This document shows, in pieces, positions 570-56,306 of a stretch of 64,000 bases of DNA. The notes under the pieces were generated by a model. It ran no database searches. It saw only the letters and a program-made list of their open reading frames with translations, and was not told the origin of the DNA. The stretch is from contig UBWZ01000013.1 of NCBI GenBank assembly GCA_900469345.1, positions 62,001-126,000 of the forward strand. Direction: 5' to 3'. The position numbers were made by a program, and so were the translations under genes. Origin of the DNA: Hyphomicrobiales bacterium (lineage in GTDB: Bacteria; Pseudomonadota; Alphaproteobacteria; Rhizobiales; Rhizobiaceae). Numbering within the stretch: the stretch's first letter is position 1; each line of letters opens with the position of its first letter.

Positions 570-1592
570 ATGCCGCCTGAAGACAGAAAGAAAAGCCGCG
601 TCACGCTCCTCGATGTCGCGCGCCGCGCCGGCGTCTCCCGGGCTACGGCGTCGCTGGTCATCCGCAAGAGCCCACTGGTCGGCGCCGACACCCGCTTGCG
701 GGTCGAAGAGGCCATGCGCGAGCTCGGCTATGTCTACAACATGGGCGCGGCGCGGCTACGGGCTGAACGCAGCCATACGGTAGGCGTTATCGTTCCCAAC
801 CTCACCAACCCCTTCTTCGCAGAGCTACTGTCCGGCATAGAGGCGGTCGTCGATGCGGCCGGCATGGTGGTGCTGCTCGCCAACAGCGGCGATCATCCCG
901 AGCGCCAGGATATGCTGATGCGGCGGATGCGCGAGCATGGGGTGGATGGCGTCATCCTCTGCCCGGCCGCCGACACGAAACCCGAACTGCTGGAGCGCGC
1001 CCTCGACTGGCAGCTTCCTGTAGTCCAGGTGCTGCGGCATATCTCCGCCGAAATCGACTATGCCGGTGCCGATTACGCAGGCGGGATGCAGCAGGCGGTG
1101 GACTATCTGGCCTTGCTCGGCCACCGTCGCATCGCCTTTGCCGTGCACGGTCCGGTCCACTCGGCCTATCGCGAACGGACGGACGGTTTTCGAGCCGCCA
1201 TGCAAGAGCGGCAACTCGATCCCGGGATAATCGTCCGCGTCCCCGACGCGACCGCGTCCATTCCGTCGGCAGCTCCGCTGCTCTTTGACGCGGGGCCTCG
1301 GCCGACCGCTGTCATCTGCTTCAACGATGTGGTTGCGCTTGGCCTTTCCGCCGGCTTGCACGATATGGGACTGAGGATCGGGGAAGACTTTTCCCTCGTC
1401 GGTTTCGACGACGTCACGGATGCGGAAACCATGCGGCCGCGTCTGAGCTCTGTGGCGACCGCGCCGGTGACGATCGGGGAAAATTCCGCGCGTCTGCTTC
1501 TCGATCGGTTGGCCGAACCTGCGGGCCCTGCGCGGCGCATGGTGACGGAGACGCATCTGCATATCCGTCAGTCCTGCGTTTCCGTTGCCTGA
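570..1592 (+). CDS. LacI-family transcriptional regulator
   Basis: 340 residues from ATG 570; the frame is open from 534 and GTG 561 is an alternative start. Residues about 10-60 carry a LacI helix-turn-helix (VTLLDVARRAGVSRATAS) and hinge helix (GYVYNMGAARLR). The rest is a periplasmic-binding-protein-like effector domain (NPFFAELLSGIE, then a CFNDVVALGL stretch and LVGFDDV near the end), as in sugar-responsive repressors. It stands alone between modC and a convergent LysR gene, and the two 3' ends overlap by 25 bases. Its target is not obvious; LacI-type operators have a central CG, as do the two GATCGATC palindromes near 22155 and 32112, but no link to this protein is shown. Confidence 0.88.
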   Translation: MPPEDRKKSRVTLLDVARRAGVSRATASLVIRKSPLVGADTRLRVEEAMRELGYVYNMGAARLRAERSHTVGVIVPNLTNPFFAELLSGIEAVVDAAGMVVLLANSGDHPERQDMLMRRMREHGVDGVILCPAADTKPELLERALDWQLPVVQVLRHISAEIDYAGADYAGGMQQAVDYLALLGHRRIAFAVHGPVHSAYRERTDGFRAAMQERQLDPGIIVRVPDATASIPSAAPLLFDAGPRPTAVICFNDVVALGLSAGLHDMGLRIGEDFSLVGFDDVTDAETMRPRLSSVATAPVTIGENSARLLLDRLAEPAGPARRMVTETHLHIRQSCVSVA

Positions 1593-2902
1593 AGCCCGCC
1601 CAAGCGCCGGCTGCGGGACGGCCGCCTCACATCGCCTGGCCCCGCTTCCACCAGGCCGGCTGCCGACAAGATGGAATGCACCAGGCTTGCCGTTGCCGCG
1701 GAATTGCCGGATTTGCGCCAGGCAAGCGAGAGCTGCATGTCGTAGGCTCGCGGCAGCAGGGAGGCGCCGAGAGAGGGCTCCAGTCCGGCCGTCGCCCATT
1801 CCGGCAGGACGGCGAGGTGGCCATGCTCGAGGACGAGATTGGCGATGACCGGTATCGAGTCGATCTCGACGAAAGCGAGTTGCGCCCGCTCGTCTGCGGT
1901 GAGCACATCCTCGATGAACAGCGAAAACTTCTGGCGCAGGCCGCTCTTGAGGCTCGGCAGCGCGATCGGTGCCCCGAGCAGGCTTTCCGGTAAGCGCGCC
2001 TGCGATCCGGCGACCAGGTCGCGCGCGCCGACCAGACACAGGCCGGACCGGGACAGGACCCGGTGTTCCGTATCAGCGGGCAGGTCCAGGGTATCGAGGA
2101 GCACGATATCGTAGAGCCTGCTGCTCAGTCCGGAGAGCAGCTCCTCGGCATTGCTGCTGGAAATGTAGAGAGGGCTGTGCGGCTGAAGCTTCGGCCATTC
2201 CGCCGCGAGCTGTGCCAGCATGCGTGCGACCAGGCTTTCCCGCCCAAGCGGCGCGACGGAGCCGAGATTGGTGCGCTTGGCGGAGCGGCGAAAACGTTCG
2301 TCGGCAGGCTCTGACATGCGAAGCCAGAGCTTCTCGATCTCCTGGCCGGTTTTGAGGAATGCCTCGCCGCTTTCGGTCGGGACGGCGCCGGCCGCCATCC
2401 GCTGCAAGAGCGCCGTTCCCATATCGGCTTCCAGGGTCTTCAGCTGGCGCGTCAGCTGCGGCTGCCCCATGCCGATTTCCAGCGCCGCGCTGCGGATGCT
2501 GCCGGTTCGGGCAACGACGATGAACCGCGACAGAGCCAGAAGCGAGACCGACAGCCGTGCCGCCTCGCGCTCGCCGGCCGGGGGCAATCCTCCCGGTTGC
2601 CGCAGTCCGGCGAGATCGAGGACGAGATCGGACAACCGTCCCAGCTCCCGCCCGATCCGCCGCCCTTCAAGCGTCGGAAGCAGACGGTTCCCGGTGGTCG
2701 TCACGAGCGGCGTGGCAAGATGTGCCTGCAGCTTTGCCAATGCCGTCGAGACGCTGGCAACCGGGCGGTCCAGCCGCCGCGCCGTCTCGCGTATGCTTCC
2801 AATGGACAGGGCATGATGGGCAATCACCAGGCTGGCGAGGTTCATGAAGACGGTACCTTGTCGCCGGATCAGGCGTTCCGACCGGCGGGATAGTTCGTTC
2901 AT
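1568..2902 (-). CDS. LysR-family regulator with two tandem N-terminal HTH domains
   Basis: 444 residues from ATG 2902 (in-frame upstream codon at 2929; ATG 2845 gives the usual LysR N-terminus). LysR proteins are usually about 300 residues. Here the extra length is a second winged-helix unit. The first HTH lies around residues 20-80 (SIRETARRLDRPVASVSTAL, then LVTTTGNRLLPTLEG). The second lies around 125-185 (GSIRSAALEIGMGQPQLTRQ, then LLQRMAAGAVPTESGEAFL). A LysR substrate-binding domain follows. It is divergent from the thiohydantoin-type operon starting at 2985, with a 13-bp palindrome at its own start, so it probably controls that operon and itself. The inducer is unknown. Confidence 0.85.
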   Translation of the reverse strand: MNELSRRSERLIRRQGTVFMNLASLVIAHHALSIGSIRETARRLDRPVASVSTALAKLQAHLATPLVTTTGNRLLPTLEGRRIGRELGRLSDLVLDLAGLRQPGGLPPAGEREAARLSVSLLALSRFIVVARTGSIRSAALEIGMGQPQLTRQLKTLEADMGTALLQRMAAGAVPTESGEAFLKTGQEIEKLWLRMSEPADERFRRSAKRTNLGSVAPLGRESLVARMLAQLAAEWPKLQPHSPLYISSSNAEELLSGLSSRLYDIVLLDTLDLPADTEHRVLSRSGLCLVGARDLVAGSQARLPESLLGAPIALPSLKSGLRQKFSLFIEDVLTADERAQLAFVEIDSIPVIANLVLEHGHLAVLPEWATAGLEPSLGASLLPRAYDMQLSLAWRKSGNSAATASLVHSILSAAGLVEAGPGDVRRPSRSRRLGGLQATETQD

Positions 2903-2915
2903 GATATGAGATATC
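2903..2915. promoter_or_regulatory. Candidate LysR operator (GATATGAGATATC)
   Basis: A perfect 5-3-5 inverted repeat directly upstream of the LysR ATG at 2902, in the 82-base divergent gap before the catabolic operon. The A/T-rich arms with an odd centre fit the T-N11-A style of LysR sites. Autoregulation is inferred from position only. Confidence 0.4.
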
Positions 2916-2984
2916 CCAGCTCTTCGCAAACCGGCCTATCGTGGCCCTGACCCGCAAGCAGCCACAAAAGAAGAGGGAACAGGC

Positions 2985-4382
2985 GTGTCGGATTTCGATC
3001 TTGTACTCAAGGGCACTTTGGTGCTCCCCGATCGTCTTGTGCCGCAGGGTTTTGTCGCCGTGCGCGACGGCCTGGTGGCCGCGCTTGGTCAAGGCCAGAT
3101 GCCGGAGGCCAGGGAGCGCCATGAGCTCGGTGACGCATTGGTTTTCCCGGGCGTCATCGATGCGCAGGTGCACTCGCTGTCGCAGAAAAGTCAGGAGGAT
3201 TTTATCTGGTCGACCCGGACGGCTGCTGCCGGCGGCGTTACCACGATCGTCGACATGCCCTATGACGAGGGAAACCTGGTCTGCTCCGCCGACGCCGTGC
3301 GCGGCAAGGCAAGGCACGGCGAGACCCAGGCGCGCGTCGACTTCGCGCTCTATGGCACGATCGATCCGCAGGAGGGCGCAACACGCATTGGCGAGCAGGT
3401 CGAGGCCGGCGTTGCCGCGTTCAAGTTTTCCACCTTCGGGACCGACCCGAAACGCTTCCCACGCATCACCGCGCCGCTAATGGCGGAATGCTTTTCCGCG
3501 ATCGCTCCGACAGGACTGGCCGCCGGCGTCCATAACGAAAACGACGAATATGTCCGCGCCGCCATGGCGGCGGTCCAGGCCTCCGGCGTTACCGACTATC
3601 GCGCGCACGAACTGTCCAGGCCGCCGCTGACGGAACTGCTGGCAATGACCGAGATCTACGAAATCGGAGCGGCCACCGGTTGCCCGGCGCATGTGGTGCA
3701 CTGCTCGCTCGGTCGCGGTTATGAAATCGCTGCCGGTTACCGGGCACAAGGGCATCGCGCGACCGTCGAATGCCTGATCCACTACCTGACGCTCGACAGC
3801 GAGACGGATGCCAAGCGGCTGGGCGGCCGCTCCAAATGCAACCCGCCGATCCGGTCGCGTGACGAGGTGGAGAAGCTCTGGCGGCATCTGGCCGCAGGCA
3901 ATGTGACGCTTCTGTCGACCGACCATGTCAGCTGGTCGCTCGATCGCAAGACCAATCCGGACATGCTCGCCAACGCCTCCGGCCTGCCGGGTCTGGAAGC
4001 GATCCTGCCGCTCTTCGTCAAGGGTGCGCTGGAGCGCGGTGTGCCGCTCAGCTGGGGCGCAAGGCTGATGGCGCTCAACCCGGCAAGGCATTTCCGCATC
4101 GACCATCTGAAGGGTGCGCTTGAAGTGGGCAAGCATGCCGATATCGCGGTCCTGACGCCGGAAGATCATGTCTTCGACGCGTCGAAGACCGGCAACAATG
4201 TGGTCGGCTGGTCCCCCTATGACGGCATGACGCTGCCTTACAAGGTCGCCGCTACCTATCTACGCGGCACTCTTGCCTACGATGGCAACACCGTTCTGGC
4301 GGAGCCGGGCACGGGACGTTTCGTGCGCCCTCCCGCCAGTCTCCCCTTCGCAGCGCTGCCGTTGCATGGAGCATTGGCATGA
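2985..4382 (+). CDS. Cyclic amidohydrolase (hydantoinase/allantoinase/dihydroorotase family)
   Basis: 465 residues from GTG 2985, preceded by AAGAGGGA at 2971-2978. It is a TIM-barrel metal-dependent hydrolase of cyclic ureides. The carboxylysine candidate is in AAFKFSTFG (about residue 146); other metal or catalytic residues are in HNEND, in HVVHCSLGRG and in LLSTDHVSW. The usual first-strand HxH is changed: GVIDAQVHS has Gln61 in place of the first His. The C-terminus returns to the small beta domain (GKHADIAVL). The next gene overlaps by ATGA and encodes an N-carbamoyl amidohydrolase, so ring opening to an N-carbamoyl acid is the likely step. The exact substrate is inferred; hydantoin-5-propionate is the favoured guess. 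Confidence 0.82.
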   Translation: MSDFDLVLKGTLVLPDRLVPQGFVAVRDGLVAALGQGQMPEARERHELGDALVFPGVIDAQVHSLSQKSQEDFIWSTRTAAAGGVTTIVDMPYDEGNLVCSADAVRGKARHGETQARVDFALYGTIDPQEGATRIGEQVEAGVAAFKFSTFGTDPKRFPRITAPLMAECFSAIAPTGLAAGVHNENDEYVRAAMAAVQASGVTDYRAHELSRPPLTELLAMTEIYEIGAATGCPAHVVHCSLGRGYEIAAGYRAQGHRATVECLIHYLTLDSETDAKRLGGRSKCNPPIRSRDEVEKLWRHLAAGNVTLLSTDHVSWSLDRKTNPDMLANASGLPGLEAILPLFVKGALERGVPLSWGARLMALNPARHFRIDHLKGALEVGKHADIAVLTPEDHVFDASKTGNNVVGWSPYDGMTLPYKVAATYLRGTLAYDGNTVLAEPGTGRFVRPPASLPFAALPLHGALA

Positions 4383-5617
4383 CCCGTAATCTTCTCGTTC
4401 GGGCAGACCGGATCGCCGCTGATATCGATGCACTTGCCGCCATCACCGAGCCCGAACGTCCCTGGACGCGCCGCGCCTTCACGCCGATGTTTTTGAAGGG
4501 CCGCGCCTATGTCGAAAAGATCTTCCGCGAGGCCGGGCTCGAAACCGAGATCGATGCCGCTGGCAACATGAGCGGGCGCCGCAGGGGAACGGTGGAGGGC
4601 AAGGGCACGATCATGCTCGGCTCGCACACGGATACGGTGCCGAACGGCGGCCGCTTCGACGGCATCGCCGGCGTCATCGCGGCGCTGGAAGTCGCCCGCG
4701 CGCTGCACGATGCGGGTGTGTTACTGGAGCACGACCTGGAGATCGTCGATTTCCTCGCCGAGGAAGTGTCGATCTTCGGTGTCTCCTGCATCGGCAGCCG
4801 CGGCATGACCGGCGTTCGCCCGCCGGAATGGCTGGAACGCAGCACGGACGGCGGGACGCTGGCGGATGGCATCCGTCAGGTCGGCGGCGATCCGGACACC
4901 GTTTTCAAGCGCACCGATATCAAGGCTTTCCTCGAACTCCATATCGAGCAGGGCACGGTGCTGGAGCGGGACAACATCGATATCGGCGTGGTTGGCGCCA
5001 TCACCGGCATTTCCCGTTTCGAAATTCTCGTCGAGGGCAGAGCCGACCACGCGGGTACAACGCCGATGAATGCGCGCTACGATGCGCTGGGGGCGGCATC
5101 TCTTCTCGTGCTCGGCATCGAGCGGATCGCCCGGGAGCTTGCGTCGGGCAAGAGCTATTTCGCCGGCACGGTCGGGGAGTTCTCGATGGAGCCGAACGCC
5201 GCCAACGTCATCCCCTCGCATGTGCGCATGCTGATTGATGCCCGCGCCGTCGATGATGCCGTGATGGACGAATTCGTCGCCTCGATCACCGCGCTTTGCG
5301 AACAGACCGCTAGCGAGCGCGGCGTGACGATTACCGACCCACGGCGGGTATCGCACGCGGCGCCGACGCCGATGTCGCAGATGGTGACCGGCCTCCTGAC
5401 CGAGAGCGCGGCCCGGATCGGCGCCACCAGCCGGCCGATGGTCTCGGGCGCCGGCCATGATGCGGCTTTCCTCGCCAAGGTCGCGCCGGCCGCGATGATC
5501 TTCATCGCCAGCAAGGATGGCCGCAGCCATACGGCGGAGGAATGGTCGGAAAACGACGATATCGCGCTCGGCGCTGCCGTTCTCTACGAGACGGTGCTGC
5601 AAGTCGACAAGCAATAG
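4379..5617 (+). CDS. M20-family N-carbamoyl-L-amino-acid hydrolase / allantoate amidohydrolase-like
   Basis: 412 residues, start overlapping the upstream stop by 4 bases. Binuclear-metal peptidase M20 motifs are complete: GSHTDTVPNGGRFDGIAGV, the EE pair in FLAEEVSIFGVS, ELHIEQGTVLE, ADHAGTTPM in the dimerisation-lid domain, and the last His in SKDGRSHTAEEW. The family removes a carbamoyl group as CO2 and ammonia. Next to the cyclic amidohydrolase it forms the standard hydantoinase/carbamoylase pair; in this cluster N-carbamoyl-glutamate is a plausible substrate, giving glutamate. Allantoate is an alternative, but no other purine-catabolism genes are nearby. Confidence 0.87.
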   Translation: MTRNLLVRADRIAADIDALAAITEPERPWTRRAFTPMFLKGRAYVEKIFREAGLETEIDAAGNMSGRRRGTVEGKGTIMLGSHTDTVPNGGRFDGIAGVIAALEVARALHDAGVLLEHDLEIVDFLAEEVSIFGVSCIGSRGMTGVRPPEWLERSTDGGTLADGIRQVGGDPDTVFKRTDIKAFLELHIEQGTVLERDNIDIGVVGAITGISRFEILVEGRADHAGTTPMNARYDALGAASLLVLGIERIARELASGKSYFAGTVGEFSMEPNAANVIPSHVRMLIDARAVDDAVMDEFVASITALCEQTASERGVTITDPRRVSHAAPTPMSQMVTGLLTESAARIGATSRPMVSGAGHDAAFLAKVAPAAMIFIASKDGRSHTAEEWSENDDIALGAAVLYETVLQVDKQ

Positions 5618-5628
5618 GGGCCAAACAC

Positions 5629-6717
5629 ATGGGGCGCATTCTGACGGAGAAGGATGTCGAGCCGGCGGTGCGCGGCGGCTCGGTCTATGCGGCGGGCGGC
5701 GGCGGCTGGTCGGATCACGGCCGGATGCTGGGACATGCTGCCGTCAGCATCGGCCGGCCTGAACTGATCACCATCGATGAACTGGACGATGACGACTGGG
5801 TGGCGACGGCCGCCGCCATCGGCGCCCCGGCCTCGACGACCGCGTGGGAAATGCAGGGCGTCGATTACGTCAAGGCGGTGCAGCTTCTCGAGGATACCCT
5901 CGGCGAACAGCTGTCTGCCCTGATGATCGGCCAGAACGGCAAATCGTCGACGCTGAACGGCTGGCTGCCGTCCGCCATCCTCGGCACCAAGGTGCTGGAT
6001 GCCGTCGGCGACGTGCGTGCCCACCCGACCGGCGACATGGGCTCGATCGGCATGGCCAATTCGCCGCAGCAAATGATCCAGACCGCGGTCGGCGGCAATC
6101 GCGCCGAAAACCGCTACATCGAACTCGTCGTGCGCGGCGCTACCGCCAAGATCTCGCCGATCCTCCGCACGGCGTCGGACATGTCCGGCGGTTTCATCGC
6201 CTCCTGCCGCAATCCTCTGCGCGCGTCGTATGTCCGCGACAATGCGGCGCTGGGCGGTATCAGCCTTGCGCTCAAGCTGGGCGAGGCGATCATCCAAGCC
6301 AGTGCGCGTGGCGGTCACGCGGTGATCGATGCGATCGTCAGGACCACCGGCGGTGCGATCATTGGCGAGGCGGAGGTCACGGACAAATCGGTGGTCTATA
6401 CCAGGGAAGCCTTCGACGTGGGTACCATCACGCTGGGAACTGGCGATAGCGCGATCACCCTGCATGTGATGAACGAGTACATGGCGGTGGATGACGCCGG
6501 CGGCAACCGCCTCGCCACCTTCCCGGATATCATCTCGACGTTGTCGCCGGACGGCGAGCCGATGAGTGTCGGCCAGCTCGAGGTCGGCATGCGGGTGTTC
6601 GTGCTGCATGTTCCAAAGACGCTCATCCCGCTGTCGTCCAGCGTCAAGGACCCATCGGTCTATCCGATCTGCGAGAAGGCTCTGGGGATCAGCATTGCAG
6701 ACTATGCGCTGGGGTGA
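5629..6717 (+). CDS. DUF917 / S-methyl-thiohydantoin desulfurase family protein
   Basis: 362 residues from ATG 5629, 11 bases after the carbamoylase stop. The N-terminal half has the glycine-rich start VRGGSVYAAGGGGWSDHG, the DELDDDDWV acidic stretch and a long small-residue region (IGMANSPQQMIQ). These are the features I associate with the DUF917 family, which accompanies hydantoinase genes and is now named after S-methyl-thiohydantoin desulfurase. The C-terminal part (about 260-362) resembles the family's second, beta-rich domain. In the proposed route it would remove sulfur from a 2-thioxo-imidazolone to give the hydantoin for the amidohydrolase. The family call is fairly secure; the reaction is inferred from context. 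Confidence 0.72.
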   Translation: MGRILTEKDVEPAVRGGSVYAAGGGGWSDHGRMLGHAAVSIGRPELITIDELDDDDWVATAAAIGAPASTTAWEMQGVDYVKAVQLLEDTLGEQLSALMIGQNGKSSTLNGWLPSAILGTKVLDAVGDVRAHPTGDMGSIGMANSPQQMIQTAVGGNRAENRYIELVVRGATAKISPILRTASDMSGGFIASCRNPLRASYVRDNAALGGISLALKLGEAIIQASARGGHAVIDAIVRTTGGAIIGEAEVTDKSVVYTREAFDVGTITLGTGDSAITLHVMNEYMAVDDAGGNRLATFPDIISTLSPDGEPMSVGQLEVGMRVFVLHVPKTLIPLSSSVKDPSVYPICEKALGISIADYALG

Positions 6718-6732
6718 GTGAGGTTGCGGCAT

Positions 6733-6762
6733 GTCGATCTCCCGCTTGAGAGGGAGATCGAC
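6733..6762. repeat. Perfect 11-bp hairpin inside the operon
   Basis: Arms at 6733-6743 (GTCGATCTCCC) and 6752-6762 (GGGAGATCGAC) with an 8-base loop, in the 123-base gap between the DUF917 gene and the urocanase homologue. No T-run follows, so it is not a clear terminator. It could stabilise or process the mRNA, or be a copy of a dispersed rhizobial palindromic element. Confidence 0.6.
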
Positions 6763-6840
6763 GATGCTCAAATAAGAGGGCCCCCTTCTAACCTCGACAC
6801 CACATCGGGTGAGGCAATCCTCACGAGACAGGAGACCACG

Positions 6841-8526
6841 ATGCCGAAACCCAATCCGCGCCATCCAAACTTCCCGATCCCTGGCGGGCCCGAGCTGCGC
6901 GCCAAAGGCTGGCGGCAGGAGGCTCTGCTGCGACTTCTCGAAAACGTGCTTTCGGTCGGCGAGGATCCTGATAATCTGATCGTCTATGCCGCGCTCGGCA
7001 AGGCGGCCCGCAACTGGGCGGCGCATGAGGCGATCGTGCGCACCTTGAAAAGCATGGACGAGGATCAGACGCTGGTGATCCAGTCCGGCAAGCCGGTGGG
7101 GTTGCTCAAGACCCATGATCGCGCGCCGCTGGTGATCATGGCCAATTGCAACATCGTCGGGCAATGGGCCAAGGCCGAGTATTTCTACGCACTGCAGGAC
7201 AAGGGCCTGATCTGCTGGGGCGGGCTGACCGCCGGTGCCTGGCAGTATATCGGCAGCCAGGGCGTCATCCAGGGCACCTACGAGATCTTCATGCGGATCG
7301 CAGAAAAGCGGTTCGGCGGATCGCTCGCCGGCCGCTTTATCCTCACCGCCGGGCTTGGCGGCATGGGCGGGGCGCAGCCGCTCGCCGGTCGCATGGCGGG
7401 TGCGGCGATCTTTGTCGTCGATATCGATCCGGAGCGGGTCGCCAAGCGCAAGGCGATCGGTTTCCTCGACGAGGTCGCGCCGGATCTGGATACGGCGCTC
7501 GCGATGATAAATGCGGCAGTCAAGGACAAGCGCGCCGTCTCGATCGGTCTCGTTGGCAATGCCGCCGACATCTACCCTGACATCGTCAAGCGCGGCATCG
7601 TGCCCGATATCGTCTCCGACCAGACATCCGCGCATGACCTCGTCTATGGCTATGTGCCGAAGGGGATGAGCCTTGAGCAGGTGAGGCGGCTGCGCATCGA
7701 AGGCCAGGGCCAGCTGATGGCGGCGAGCCGCGCCTCGATCGCCGATCATGTTCGCGCCATGCTGACGCTTCAGGAAAAGGGCGCGGAAGTGTTCGACAAC
7801 GGCAACCTCATCCGCACCCAGGCGCGAGAGGGCGGCGTCCAGAACGCGTTCGACATTCCGATCTTCACCGAAGCCTATCTGCGGCCGCTGTTTGCCCGCG
7901 CCATCGGTCCGTTCCGTTGGATGGCGCTGTCGGGAGAGGAGAGCGATATCGCCCGCATCGACGATCTCGTGCTCGAGCTCTTCCCGGACAATTTTATCGT
8001 CACCAACTGGATCCGGCTGGCGCGCGAAAACGTACCCTTCGAAGGCCTACCGGCGCGGATCGCCTGGCTTGGGCACGGCGAGCGAACCAGGCTGGCGCTC
8101 GCAGTCAACGCGCTGGTGGCAAAGGGCGAGCTTGCCGGGCCGATCGCGTTTTCGCGCGACCATCTCGATGCCGGCGCCATGGCGCATCCCAACATCATGA
8201 CCGAAAACATGAAGGACGGGTCCGACGCGATCGCAGACTGGCCGCTGATTAACGCGATGACCATGTGCGCCTCAATGGCCGACCTCGTCGTCATCCATTC
8301 GGGCGGCGGCGGATATGCGGGCTACATGACCAGCGCCGGCGTGACCGTGGTGGCTGACGGGACAGAGATGGCTGCGGAGCGCATTGCACACGCGATCACC
8401 AACGATACCTCGCTCGGCATCATCCGCTATGCCGACGCCGGTTACGACGAGGCGATCGAGGCTGCCGACGAACATGGCGTCGGCCATATCCGGCTGGGCG
8501 CGGCGCAGGACCATCGCGGAAGCTAG
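6841..8526 (+). CDS. Urocanase-family hydratase, divergent (candidate thiourocanate hydratase)
   Basis: 561 residues from ATG 6841, with AGGAG at 6830-6834. The frame is open from 6718 but that stretch holds the hairpin. It aligns along its whole length with urocanate hydratase (usual length about 555): TAGAWQYIGSQGVIQGTYE, the NAD-binding GLGGMGGAQP at 171-180, SRDHLDAG, MKDGSDAIADWPL and HSGGGGYAGY. Three changes from the canonical protein stand out. The ARICW motif with the active-site Cys reads ARIAW (Ala408), GYGER reads GHGER, and the HHGGG loop reads HSGGG. No hutH, hutI or hutG is present. With the DUF917 and hydantoinase genes this suggests an imidazole-thione analogue of urocanate as substrate. 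Family certain, substrate inferred. Confidence 0.85.
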   Translation: MPKPNPRHPNFPIPGGPELRAKGWRQEALLRLLENVLSVGEDPDNLIVYAALGKAARNWAAHEAIVRTLKSMDEDQTLVIQSGKPVGLLKTHDRAPLVIMANCNIVGQWAKAEYFYALQDKGLICWGGLTAGAWQYIGSQGVIQGTYEIFMRIAEKRFGGSLAGRFILTAGLGGMGGAQPLAGRMAGAAIFVVDIDPERVAKRKAIGFLDEVAPDLDTALAMINAAVKDKRAVSIGLVGNAADIYPDIVKRGIVPDIVSDQTSAHDLVYGYVPKGMSLEQVRRLRIEGQGQLMAASRASIADHVRAMLTLQEKGAEVFDNGNLIRTQAREGGVQNAFDIPIFTEAYLRPLFARAIGPFRWMALSGEESDIARIDDLVLELFPDNFIVTNWIRLARENVPFEGLPARIAWLGHGERTRLALAVNALVAKGELAGPIAFSRDHLDAGAMAHPNIMTENMKDGSDAIADWPLINAMTMCASMADLVVIHSGGGGYAGYMTSAGVTVVADGTEMAAERIAHAITNDTSLGIIRYADAGYDEAIEAADEHGVGHIRLGAAQDHRGS

Positions 8527-8547: not shown

Positions 8548-9834
8548 ATGCCGAAACCCACCTTCCGGGAGCCTATCTGGCGGAGGAGCGAGCGCTGGGC
8601 GGGCGCCGCCGGACCTCTTCGAGTGCGGGCTGCGCTGGATCTGCTGGTGATCGGCGGTGGCTTCCTCGGGCTTTCGACTGCCCTTCACGCGGCCCGGCAG
8701 GGCCTTTCGGTTGCTGTCGCGGAGGCCGGATCGATCGGCGAGGGCGCTTCCGGGTTGAATGGCGGACAGGTCATTCCAGGCTTCAAATACGATCCTGACC
8801 GGCTTGTGGAATTGTTCGGCGATGCGCGTGGGAATGCGATGGCGGCGTTCGGCGCAACGACGGCGGATGCGGTCTTTGATCTGATCGCCTCGGAACGTCT
8901 GGATGTGCCGCATCTCCGCTCGGGCTGGATCCAGGCGGCGCATACAAATGCTTCCTTGGCAGCCATCGGAAAGCGTCACCGTGCCTGGAAAAGCTTTGGC
9001 GCCGATGTCGCGATCCTTTCGGCTAACGAGGTCGCCCGGCTGACCGGAGCTCGTGGCTATCTCGGCGGCTGGATGGATCGCCGGGCCGGCGTGGTCGACC
9101 CTTTGAGCCTTGTCACGGAGCTGGCGCGCGTCGGGCAGGCGCAAGGCGTCCAGATCGGCGAAGGGGTCCGTATCGTGTCGCTCCGCCGAAACGGCACGCT
9201 TTGGTCGGCGGAAACGGATACGGGCGCGACCATAGAGGCGCGGCATGTCCTGATCGCCACCAATGCCTACACGGACGGGCTGATGCCCGGTCTGGCGCAG
9301 ACACTGGTGCCGCTGCATTCTTTCCAGATCGCAACCGCACCACTGCCGCCAGAGATCGATGCGACGATCCTGCCCGAGGGGCAGGCGGTGTCGGATTCGC
9401 GCCGCATCCTGGTCTACTATCGGAAGACCGCGGACGGCCGGCTGGTTCTCGGTGGGCGCGGCCGGATGGCGGTGCCGCAGGATTCGTCAGACTGGCGGCA
9501 TCTCGAACGGGCGCTGCTGCGGCTCTATCCGCAGCTCGCCGGCATCGCGATCGACAGGCGCTGGTTCGGTCGCGTCGCTATGACGGCGGATCACCTGCCG
9601 CATATCCACGAGCCGGAGCCCGGCCTGCTGACGCTGGTCGGCTGCCAGGGGCGCGGTGTCGCGCTGATGATCGCCATGGGGCGCCGGTTCGCCGATTATC
9701 TGGCCAGCGGAGACCGCGAGGCGCTTCCTTTGCCGGTCACGCCCGTCTCGCCGATTCCGCTGCACCGGTTTCGACGGGTTGGTATCGCGGCGGCCATCGG
9801 CTGGTACCGCGCACTGGATGCCTTTGAGCGGTAA
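8548..9834 (+). CDS. FAD-dependent amine/amino-acid oxidoreductase (DAO family)
   Basis: 428 residues from ATG 8548, 21 bases after the urocanase homologue. After about 30 residues comes the dinucleotide-binding fold LLVIGGGFLGLSTALHAARQ with the acidic end of strand 2 (AVAEAG), then GEGASGLNGGQV, typical of PuuB/OrdL-type DAO proteins. The C-terminal GCQGRGVALM closes the FAD site. These enzymes oxidise amines or imino/amino acids to imines or aldehydes. It may handle a side product of the upstream pathway or deliver an amino-acid-like precursor. No terminator separates it from the cluster. Confidence 0.85.
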   Translation: MPKPTFREPIWRRSERWAGAAGPLRVRAALDLLVIGGGFLGLSTALHAARQGLSVAVAEAGSIGEGASGLNGGQVIPGFKYDPDRLVELFGDARGNAMAAFGATTADAVFDLIASERLDVPHLRSGWIQAAHTNASLAAIGKRHRAWKSFGADVAILSANEVARLTGARGYLGGWMDRRAGVVDPLSLVTELARVGQAQGVQIGEGVRIVSLRRNGTLWSAETDTGATIEARHVLIATNAYTDGLMPGLAQTLVPLHSFQIATAPLPPEIDATILPEGQAVSDSRRILVYYRKTADGRLVLGGRGRMAVPQDSSDWRHLERALLRLYPQLAGIAIDRRWFGRVAMTADHLPHIHEPEPGLLTLVGCQGRGVALMIAMGRRFADYLASGDREALPLPVTPVSPIPLHRFRRVGIAAAIGWYRALDAFER

Positions 9835-56265: not shown

Positions 56266-56306
56266 GGGCGGACAGGGAGCGAGATATCCCTGTTCGCCCA
56301 TTTTTC
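56266..56306 (+). terminator. Rho-independent terminator
   Basis: Stem 56266-56278 / 56287-56299 of 13 pairs with one G-T, 8-base loop, followed by ATTTTTC. It closes the GntR-TIGR04076-AKR-binding protein operon. Confidence 0.88.

Follow-up and report, generated by a model that had tools for sequence, protein, structure and literature searches.

Ergothioneine, a thiol produced by fungi and by some bacteria, is a dietary antioxidant; bacteria break it down along a route whose chemistry and order of steps are generally known, with ergothionase (ErtA), thiourocanate hydratase, thiohydantoin desulfurase, and the hydrolases ErtD and ErtE acting in turn (the last two names are those of NCBIfam). 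Later steps of the route have reportedly been described in Burkholderia sp. HME13, and the first enzyme is represented among solved structures by 6s7j and 6s7q, which we take to be the ergothionase of Treponema denticola. The second enzyme is represented by 7NED, the thiourocanate hydratase of Paenibacillus sp. Soil724D2, a member of a genus of the Bacillota. The ergothionase of the Burkholderia strain appears as a reference in PMC13405746, and PMC9732360 places EgtU, the ergothioneine ATP-binding cassette (ABC) transporter of Streptococcus pneumoniae, in the Opu superfamily of osmoprotectant transporters. Here we describe a stretch of 64,000 nucleotides (the window) from a bacterium of the Hyphomicrobiales (assembly GCA_900469345.1, contig UBWZ01000013.1, positions 62,001 to 126,000), in which an operon of four genes at 2985-8526 very probably encodes the later steps of this known bacterial route, as judged from sequence.

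The locus resembles the known utilization pathway in that four of its proteins pass the equivalog models of that pathway, an ergothionase-like lyase is encoded in the same genome, and complete clusters with a transporter occur in two relatives, Martelella radicis (L039) and G040. It differs in that the genes lie at two places in the genome (three if the transporter is counted), that the history of ertA differs from that of the downstream genes, and that a LysR-type regulator with a shared operator is proposed. The chemistry is already known; what is new is the split mosaic set, the LysR protein with tandem helix-turn-helix (HTH) domains, and the proposed operator. Taking all lines together, we consider it highly probable that the window operon covers steps 2 to 5 of ergothioneine catabolism, with ErtA encoded apart on another contig, uptake by an OpuAC-type transporter, a mosaic origin, and a LysR operator common to the dispersed parts. 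Among the literature matches listed, we recognized none that dealt with ergothioneine operons of rhizobia or how these are regulated, with thiourocanate hydratase, or with the split set, the tandem-HTH LysR, and the operator, which is no proof of absence from print.

RESULTS

The four open reading frames (ORFs) at 2985-8526 run in the same direction, and their products carry, in Pfam terms, an amidohydrolase domain, an M20 domain, the N- and C-terminal S-Me-THD domains, and three urocanase domains. This agrees with a preliminary description of the window, which had placed an amidohydrolase, an M20 protein, a DUF917 protein, and a urocanase homolog in one operon and had assigned that operon to steps 2 to 5 of ergothioneine breakdown; the assignment likewise holds, since all four products exceed the cut-offs of curated NCBIfam equivalog models for these steps. 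The first gene, ertD (2985..4382, plus strand, GTG start), encodes the predicted hydantoin-5-propionate amidohydrolase of step 4 (NF058538, 769.1 bits, cut-off 600), and its ORF overlaps by 4 bases that of ertE (4379..5617, plus strand), for the predicted M20-type N-carbamoyl-L-glutamate amidohydrolase of step 5 (NF058540, 573.9 bits, cut-off 520). They are followed by the genes for the putative thiohydantoin desulfurase of step 3, a DUF917/S-Me-THD protein expected to release H2S (5629..6717, plus strand; NF058529, 596.9 bits, cut-off 440), and the putative thiourocanate hydratase of step 2, a urocanase-family protein (6841..8526, plus strand; NF058530, 1039.5 bits, cut-off 930). The likely starts are GTG 2985, ATG 4379, ATG 5629, and ATG 6841. 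The last two are trimmed from longer ORFs as called: the desulfurase ORF spans 5542-6717, and its NCBIfam alignment opens at residue 32, beside the ATG at 5629; the urocanase-family ORF spans 6718-8526, and the ATG at 6841 is a conserved start with AGGAG ahead of it. The models for the corresponding S-methyl enzymes were missed (hydratase against NF058531, 752.1 bits, cut-off 880; desulfurase against NF058532, 274.1 bits, cut-off 450). The ertD product also missed a second ErtD model (362.5 bits, cut-off 650), and ErtE scores more on the generic Zn-dependent hydrolase model NF009531 (607.6 bits, cut-off 486) than on NF058540. Because the equivalog scores lie above their cut-offs and the five-gene set is co-oriented in 63 of 80 related loci (described below), the set of four genes is not a chance assembly.

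Failure to group with characterized enzymes had been named beforehand as a refutation of the assignment; this did not occur, the hydratase being nearest to the solved thiourocanate hydratase. Among solved structures it matches 7NED best (806 bits over ORF residues 56-581), followed by the urocanase 1x87 (624 bits), and its identity is 64% to 7NED, 43 to 46% to bacterial urocanases, and 46 to 47% to S-methylthiourocanate hydratase. The title of 7NED and the identities were taken from a fold search whose search model, predicted from an alignment of 25 close relatives, was poor (mean predicted local distance difference test score, 50.8), so that they are not fold evidence. The stretch YGQMTAGSW of 1x87 corresponds to WGGLTAGAW in the window protein and WGGLTAAAW in 7NED. 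The source of 7NED is a distant bacterium, and the substrate of the window hydratase is a prediction from sequence. The same genome has a separate ordinary HutU on contig C38, which scores 953.6 on the hutU model TIGR01228 and 680.3, below the cut-off, on the thiourocanate model; it adjoins a HutH protein (TIGR01225, 724.4, cut-off 539.15) on a different contig from the ert operon. The window hydratase is thus neither beside hutH nor the best HutU of its genome, and the thiourocanate model outscores the hutU model for it (1039.5 versus 697.1). Hydratases of this kind were rare in a wider draw: of 150 genomes taken from the phylum, 3 had one over the cut-off, the present one included; of 655 plasmid records matching the hydratase, 9 did so at 60 to 95% identity and 646 at less than 60%.

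The first enzyme is not encoded beside the operon. The genome (G000; 4.9 Mb, 39 contigs) contains four lyases of the histidine ammonia-lyase superfamily (PF00221), at C38 (HutH), C18:15.5 kb, C27:195.6 kb, and C35:150.3 kb, and none of these matches falls within C18:62001-126000, which is the window; its lack of a lyase had been pointed out in the preliminary description. A genome search for ergothionase, suggested there, yielded an ergothionase-like candidate at C35:150108-151685, behind ubiE-ubiB, of 526 amino acids without a stop (PF00221, 298.6 bits). The C35 lyase is without the Ala-Ser-Gly triad that forms the 4-methylideneimidazole-5-one (MIO) group (GSIGC-ADIG, versus GSVGASGD in HutH). 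Its best solved match is ergothionase 6s7j/6s7q (186.5 bits; next, 7tqr, 140), with which it shares the missing triad and a common lysine: that of its FGPIIK is aligned with that of FGTIQK in 6s7j, where HutH has LMIAEV and no lysine. The relation is remote: when 6s7j was compared with 23 other lyases, its identity did not exceed 33%, a value reached with a C27-type lyase. On nearest structure, linkage, and co-occurrence, the C35 lyase is likely to be the ergothionase, ErtA, of step 1.

Linkage was assessed in loci found by a hydratase scan of genome contigs, which confirmed 257 relatives; the best 80 of the 257 were used. A C35-type lyase lies in the flank with ert genes in 64 of the 80, of which 25 are of type I, with ubiB upstream, and 39 of type II, without ubiB and beginning with a LysR gene divergent from ertA. 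The lyase, ErtD, ErtE, desulfurase, and hydratase are all present in one orientation in 63 loci; L029 has the lyase but no ErtD. For the 16 loci without a lyase in the fetched flank, a genome search found a C35-type lyase in every case (51 to 94%). In L017 and L073, whose pieces end at a contig end, the lyase is next to an ertD on a different contig (L144 and L141, respectively), and those operons are therefore probably whole. In all 12 of L005-L015 and L041, ertA lies between ubiB and the gene for a membrane protein, Mem442, as in the genome of the window; the lyases of L035 and L038 are located elsewhere, with neither ubiB nor Mem442 within about 1.5 kb. The genomes of L008, L011, L012, L013, and L029 were found to have no ErtD above the cut-off anywhere, and hydantoin-5-propionate must therefore be opened otherwise in them. 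Upstream in L011 there is instead an amino-acid-type ABC transporter with a GntR-type regulator, and a permease resembling that of L011 occupies this place in L008, L012, and L013.

Co-occurrence was assessed in 60 genomes. A hydratase over the cut-off is present in 16 (own included), and all 16 have a C35-type lyase (67 to 100%), which was found in 1 of the 44 hydratase-less genomes (Fisher p = 1.1e-13, without correction for kinship). Five of the 16 (G010, G013, G020, G032, and G040) have the two genes no more than 10 kb apart on a single contig; in the other 11 they are on different contigs.

The compact relatives L039 and G040 suggest how ergothioneine might be taken up. Each has a single cluster in which a LysR gene faces away from an operator, followed by ertA, an OpuAC binding protein, a permease, an ATPase, a second permease, ertD, ertE, the desulfurase, and the hydratase. 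A transporter with the same gene order lies at C27:108-112 kb of our genome, with identities of 66% for the binding protein (PF04069, OpuAC, at 111 kb), 56% for the first permease, 61% for the ATPase, and 70% for the second permease. In the split relative L015, such a binding protein (65%) begins about 8 kb 3' of the hydratase; L015 and L039 are the only 2 of the 80 loci with an OpuAC-type binding protein in the flank. The resemblance of the C27 binding protein to EgtU is at the level of the Opu/OpuAC family, and its candidate ligand is predicted; the C27:108-112 kb transporter is most likely the ergothioneine importer.

Divergent from ertD lies the gene for a LysR-type regulator (1568..2845, minus strand), whose product has HTH_1 matches in two stretches and a LysR_substrate domain. 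Its ORF is open to 2929, and several relatives align from residue 28-29, which places the start near 2845. The intervening gap contains the putative operator CGTTCATGATATGAGATATCCCAG (2896..2919, plus strand), the top match to a matrix of type I ertA promoters. The LysR-ertD gaps of seven split genomes have in common a TYCAYGATATGRGATATCCC-like stretch upstream of ertD, and YGGGATATYCC is found in front of most solitary ertA genes, at a distance of 49 to 72 bases from the start; in our genome a GGGATATCCC-like site lies 5' of both the window operon and the distant C35 lyase gene. When the core was scored as RGATATYC at most 250 bases upstream, it was found before 23 of 25 type I ertA genes, 10 of 13 solitary ertA genes at the ubiB site, and 9 of 11 split-operon ertD genes, against a background of 386 in 20,000 random 270-base windows of the 80 loci. 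The solitary set leaves out L141, where the operon is intact, L142 and L143, which have no ubiB close by, and L151 (G004). The counts omit L017, for which there is no upstream DNA, and that for ertD also omits L073, whose match is void because a contig-end cut made the "upstream" stretch wrongly long (14,994 bases). In the genome as a whole, the 12-mer TKRGATATYCCM occurs at three places, C18:64907 (ertD), C35:151726 (ertA), and C30:131956; this pattern was derived from the ertD and ertA sites themselves, and its reversed control has no match. A matrix built independently from 23 type I ertA sites of other genomes (14 distinct) and scanned over 173,906 bases of our genome ranks the ertD site first (18.7). 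Two further sites were considered and set aside. That at C30:131956, a possible further member of the regulon, was taken as a chance match because it lies within the ORF of an HxlR-type regulator (L164 9276-9656, minus strand), and a similar core at window position 56282, before an SBP_bac_3 transporter gene, was not counted because TGTTC stands on its other side.

The distribution of the regulator was followed in 16 genomes, 8 of which have a LysR homolog at E<=1e-35. In the six type I genomes of that search, LysR and the ertA site agree (both in four, neither in two), and L014 and L041 have neither a LysR homolog nor the site. Four type I LysR homologs (L169-L172; 32 to 34% identity) all have TGTTC-N8-AGATATCCC, with the same spacing, in their locus; in L170 and L172 it stands between LysR and an OpuAC-type binding-protein gene (by Pfam for L170; the L172 protein is 89% identical). 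Both of the type I homologs scanned, L170 and L172, likewise have two HTH_1 stretches. The tandem-HTH LysR at 1568-2845 is the likely reader of the operator at ertD and ertA.

Trees were computed for 46 genomes, namely that of the window, those of 44 among the 80 loci, and G040, with 46 rows for ErtA and for the hydratase, 45 for ErtE and for the desulfurase, and 40 for ErtD; these were quick trees with Shimodaira-Hasegawa-like approximate likelihood ratio support only, and topologies were compared by approximately unbiased (AU) tests. In the ErtA tree, 13 split genomes of the window's clade join the type I rows L029 and L034 (support, 99) within type I (99); a topology in which the type I rows were all kept separate was rejected (p = 0.013), as was a grouping with L035, L038, and L039 (p = 0.0002). 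The other four genes differ: a union of the window clade with L029/L034 was rejected for ErtD (p = 1.4e-5), ErtE (0.002), the desulfurase (0.027), and the hydratase (0.018), and the clade joins L035, L038, and L039 with support of 99, 90, 88, and 99, respectively. A union with all type I rows was also rejected for ErtD (p = 0.016) and the hydratase (p = 0.018). The constraints comprised 13 genomes of the window clade and, for ErtD, nine, with L034 only. The best reading of these trees is that ertA stayed at the ubiB site and that a LysR-linked set from another lineage took the place of the genes downstream.

Several other features of the locus and of the genome were noted. The ErtD of the window has a glutamine where the usual HxH metal motif has its first histidine; of 40 ErtD rows compared, 38 read IDAQVH or IDAQTH, and the pattern was not found in the other 2. 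The gap between the desulfurase and hydratase genes (6718..6840, plus strand) contains a strong hairpin (fold z-score, -4.07 for 6718-6843), with a 20-base near-palindrome at 6738-6757 that is the sole match to its pattern in the window and has one further match among the related loci compared, in L044; presumably it resembles a rhizobial intergenic repeat element. A flavin adenine dinucleotide (FAD)-dependent oxidoreductase of the DAO type by Pfam is encoded at 8548-9834, 21 bases 3' of the operon, and beyond it are a convergent Lrp-type regulator and a putA-like gene, the latter named by eye. Outside the window, the lyase at C18:15497-16858 (L002 1471-2961), which is histidine ammonia-lyase (HAL)-like and has an altered MIO stretch, GSAGYLTH, lies directly behind ABC transporter genes nearest to the HisP and ArtM/HisM models, all below cut-offs. 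The MIO-less lyase at C27:195.6 kb belongs to a run at C27:195.5-203.6 kb (L096 9518-17642, minus strand) that also encodes an OpuAC-type ABC transporter (ATPase, two permeases, and binding protein), together with an ornithine-cyclodeaminase-like protein and a pair of luciferase-like monooxygenases. Possibly, and this is a guess, this run is a route for oxidized ergothioneine, such as the sulfonate, or for another betaine.

DISCUSSION

Our results point to a dispersed pathway in which ergothioneine would be imported by the OpuAC-type ABC transporter encoded at C27:108-112 kb and cleaved to thiourocanate and trimethylamine by ErtA, encoded on C35 behind ubiE-ubiB. The hydratase would then convert thiourocanate to 3-(5-oxo-2-thioxoimidazolidin-4-yl)propionate, from which the desulfurase would form hydantoin-5-propionate and H2S; ErtD would open this to N-carbamoyl-L-glutamate, and ErtE would finally yield L-glutamate, NH3, and CO2. 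The substrates and the direction of flow in this scheme, like the role of the transporter, are predicted from protein families and gene positions. The set is probably a dispersed mosaic of what in relatives is one compact cluster: ErtA would have been inherited in place from a ubiB-linked operon, and the four downstream genes would have arrived with their LysR regulator from another ert lineage, an order of events suggested by the trees. The sites ahead of ertD and of the distant ertA, of the form TGTTC-N7-GGGATATCCC or similar, are probably bound by LysR as its operator, and with LysR at both operators the split genes could still be switched together. We favor, with some reserve, the view that the two-HTH LysR controls a dispersed regulon through this operator and that the mosaic is a working one, in which an ertA left at the ancestral ubiB site is wired by that operator to four genes from another ert lineage.

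A number of results weigh against parts of this reconstruction. For the regulon, the core was found before only 1 of 39 type II ertA genes and before none of four split-operon ertE genes without ertD; it is missing before ertD in L014 and L041, the solitary ertA genes of L129 (with a single mismatch), L136, and L137 lack it as well, and it was not found upstream of the C27:108-112 kb transporter. The independent matrix ranks our own ertA site only sixth (8.0), the ertA site is retained in L008 and L011-L013, which have no LysR homolog at E<=1e-35, and the type II loci L016 and L026 have a LysR homolog without the site. For the mosaic, a union of the window clade with all type I rows was not rejected for ErtE (p = 0.199) or the desulfurase (p = 0.22), the AU p values are uncorrected, and the trees of two genes had been seen before the groups were named. 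For the enzymes, the window hydratase scores 697.1 on the general hutU model TIGR01228, above the cut-off of 375; no lyase of the genome matched an NCBIfam ergothionase model; 6s7j falls outside the ErtA group in the lyase tree, where long branches were flagged; and the MIO-less C27 lyase scores more against 6s7j than the C35 lyase does (274.6 versus 186.5 bits by phmmer). G004, finally, has the lyase without a hydratase over the cut-off. Its ertA (G004:C57, L151) is solitary and carries the operator core at the ubiB site; it is a left-behind gene, which is what one would expect if its lineage had lost the remaining ert genes.

The score of the C27 lyase raises the possibility that it, and not the C35 lyase, is the true first enzyme and that the C35 lyase does something else. 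All 7 of the 60 genomes with a C27 orthologue (69 to 100%) have the ert hydratase, which would fit such a role, but 9 of the 16 genomes with a hydratase yielded no orthologue in a direct search (E<=1e-100), and it is a C35-type lyase that accompanies the ert genes in 64 of the 80 loci; C27 matches in ert loci reach only 29 to 34% and lie at the same places as the C35 matches. The C27 protein is also without the histidine kept by 6s7j and ErtA (RGRGMAVG versus NSHCLG and RAHHFG), and we regard its candidacy as unlikely. The preliminary description had offered two accounts of the lyase absent from the window: that it is encoded elsewhere, or that the operon takes thiourocanate directly. The former fits better, because an ergothionase-like lyase is present on C35 of the same genome. 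The latter, in which other organisms would supply the operon with thiourocanate, or with a different imidazole-thione, and no step 1 enzyme would work with it, agrees with the absence of a lyase beside the operon and with cross-feeding of gut bacteria on thiourocanic acid, as reported in PMC13405746. Against it, a C35-type lyase is present in 16 of 16 hydratase genomes among the 60 and in 16 of 16 genomes whose fetched locus lacked one, and our own ertD and ertA promoters carry the same kind of site; this account is less fitting and seems to us decidedly improbable.

That the operon serves the breakdown of S-methyl-ergothioneine or of histidine, for which the shared protein families and the passed hutU model would speak, is highly improbable: both S-methyl models were missed, and a separate HutU, with the higher score on the same hutU model, adjoins a HutH that passes TIGR01225. 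The substrate might also come from the FAD-dependent oxidoreductase at 8548-9834, acting on a thio-histidine derivative; its place just behind the operon and its DAO family would allow this, but a homolog stands in the flank of only 2 of the 80 loci (L005 and L010), and its nearest curated model, L-pipecolate oxidase, scores 280.7, far under the cut-off of 600, so that we give this source hardly any weight. The C35 lyase and the window operon, acting in one pathway, remain the explanation that we prefer.

The breakdown of ergothioneine yields trimethylamine and, by this pathway, H2S, and the present case illustrates that a step is not necessarily missing when its gene is absent from the start of the operon. 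The C35-type lyase group may aid the recognition of ergothionases hidden under the names of histidine or aromatic amino acid lyases; according to PMC13405746, a BLAST search with the Burkholderia enzyme gave only similarities to such lyases. With a candidate regulator and a candidate operator at hand, control of the ergothioneine pathway becomes directly testable in soil bacteria.

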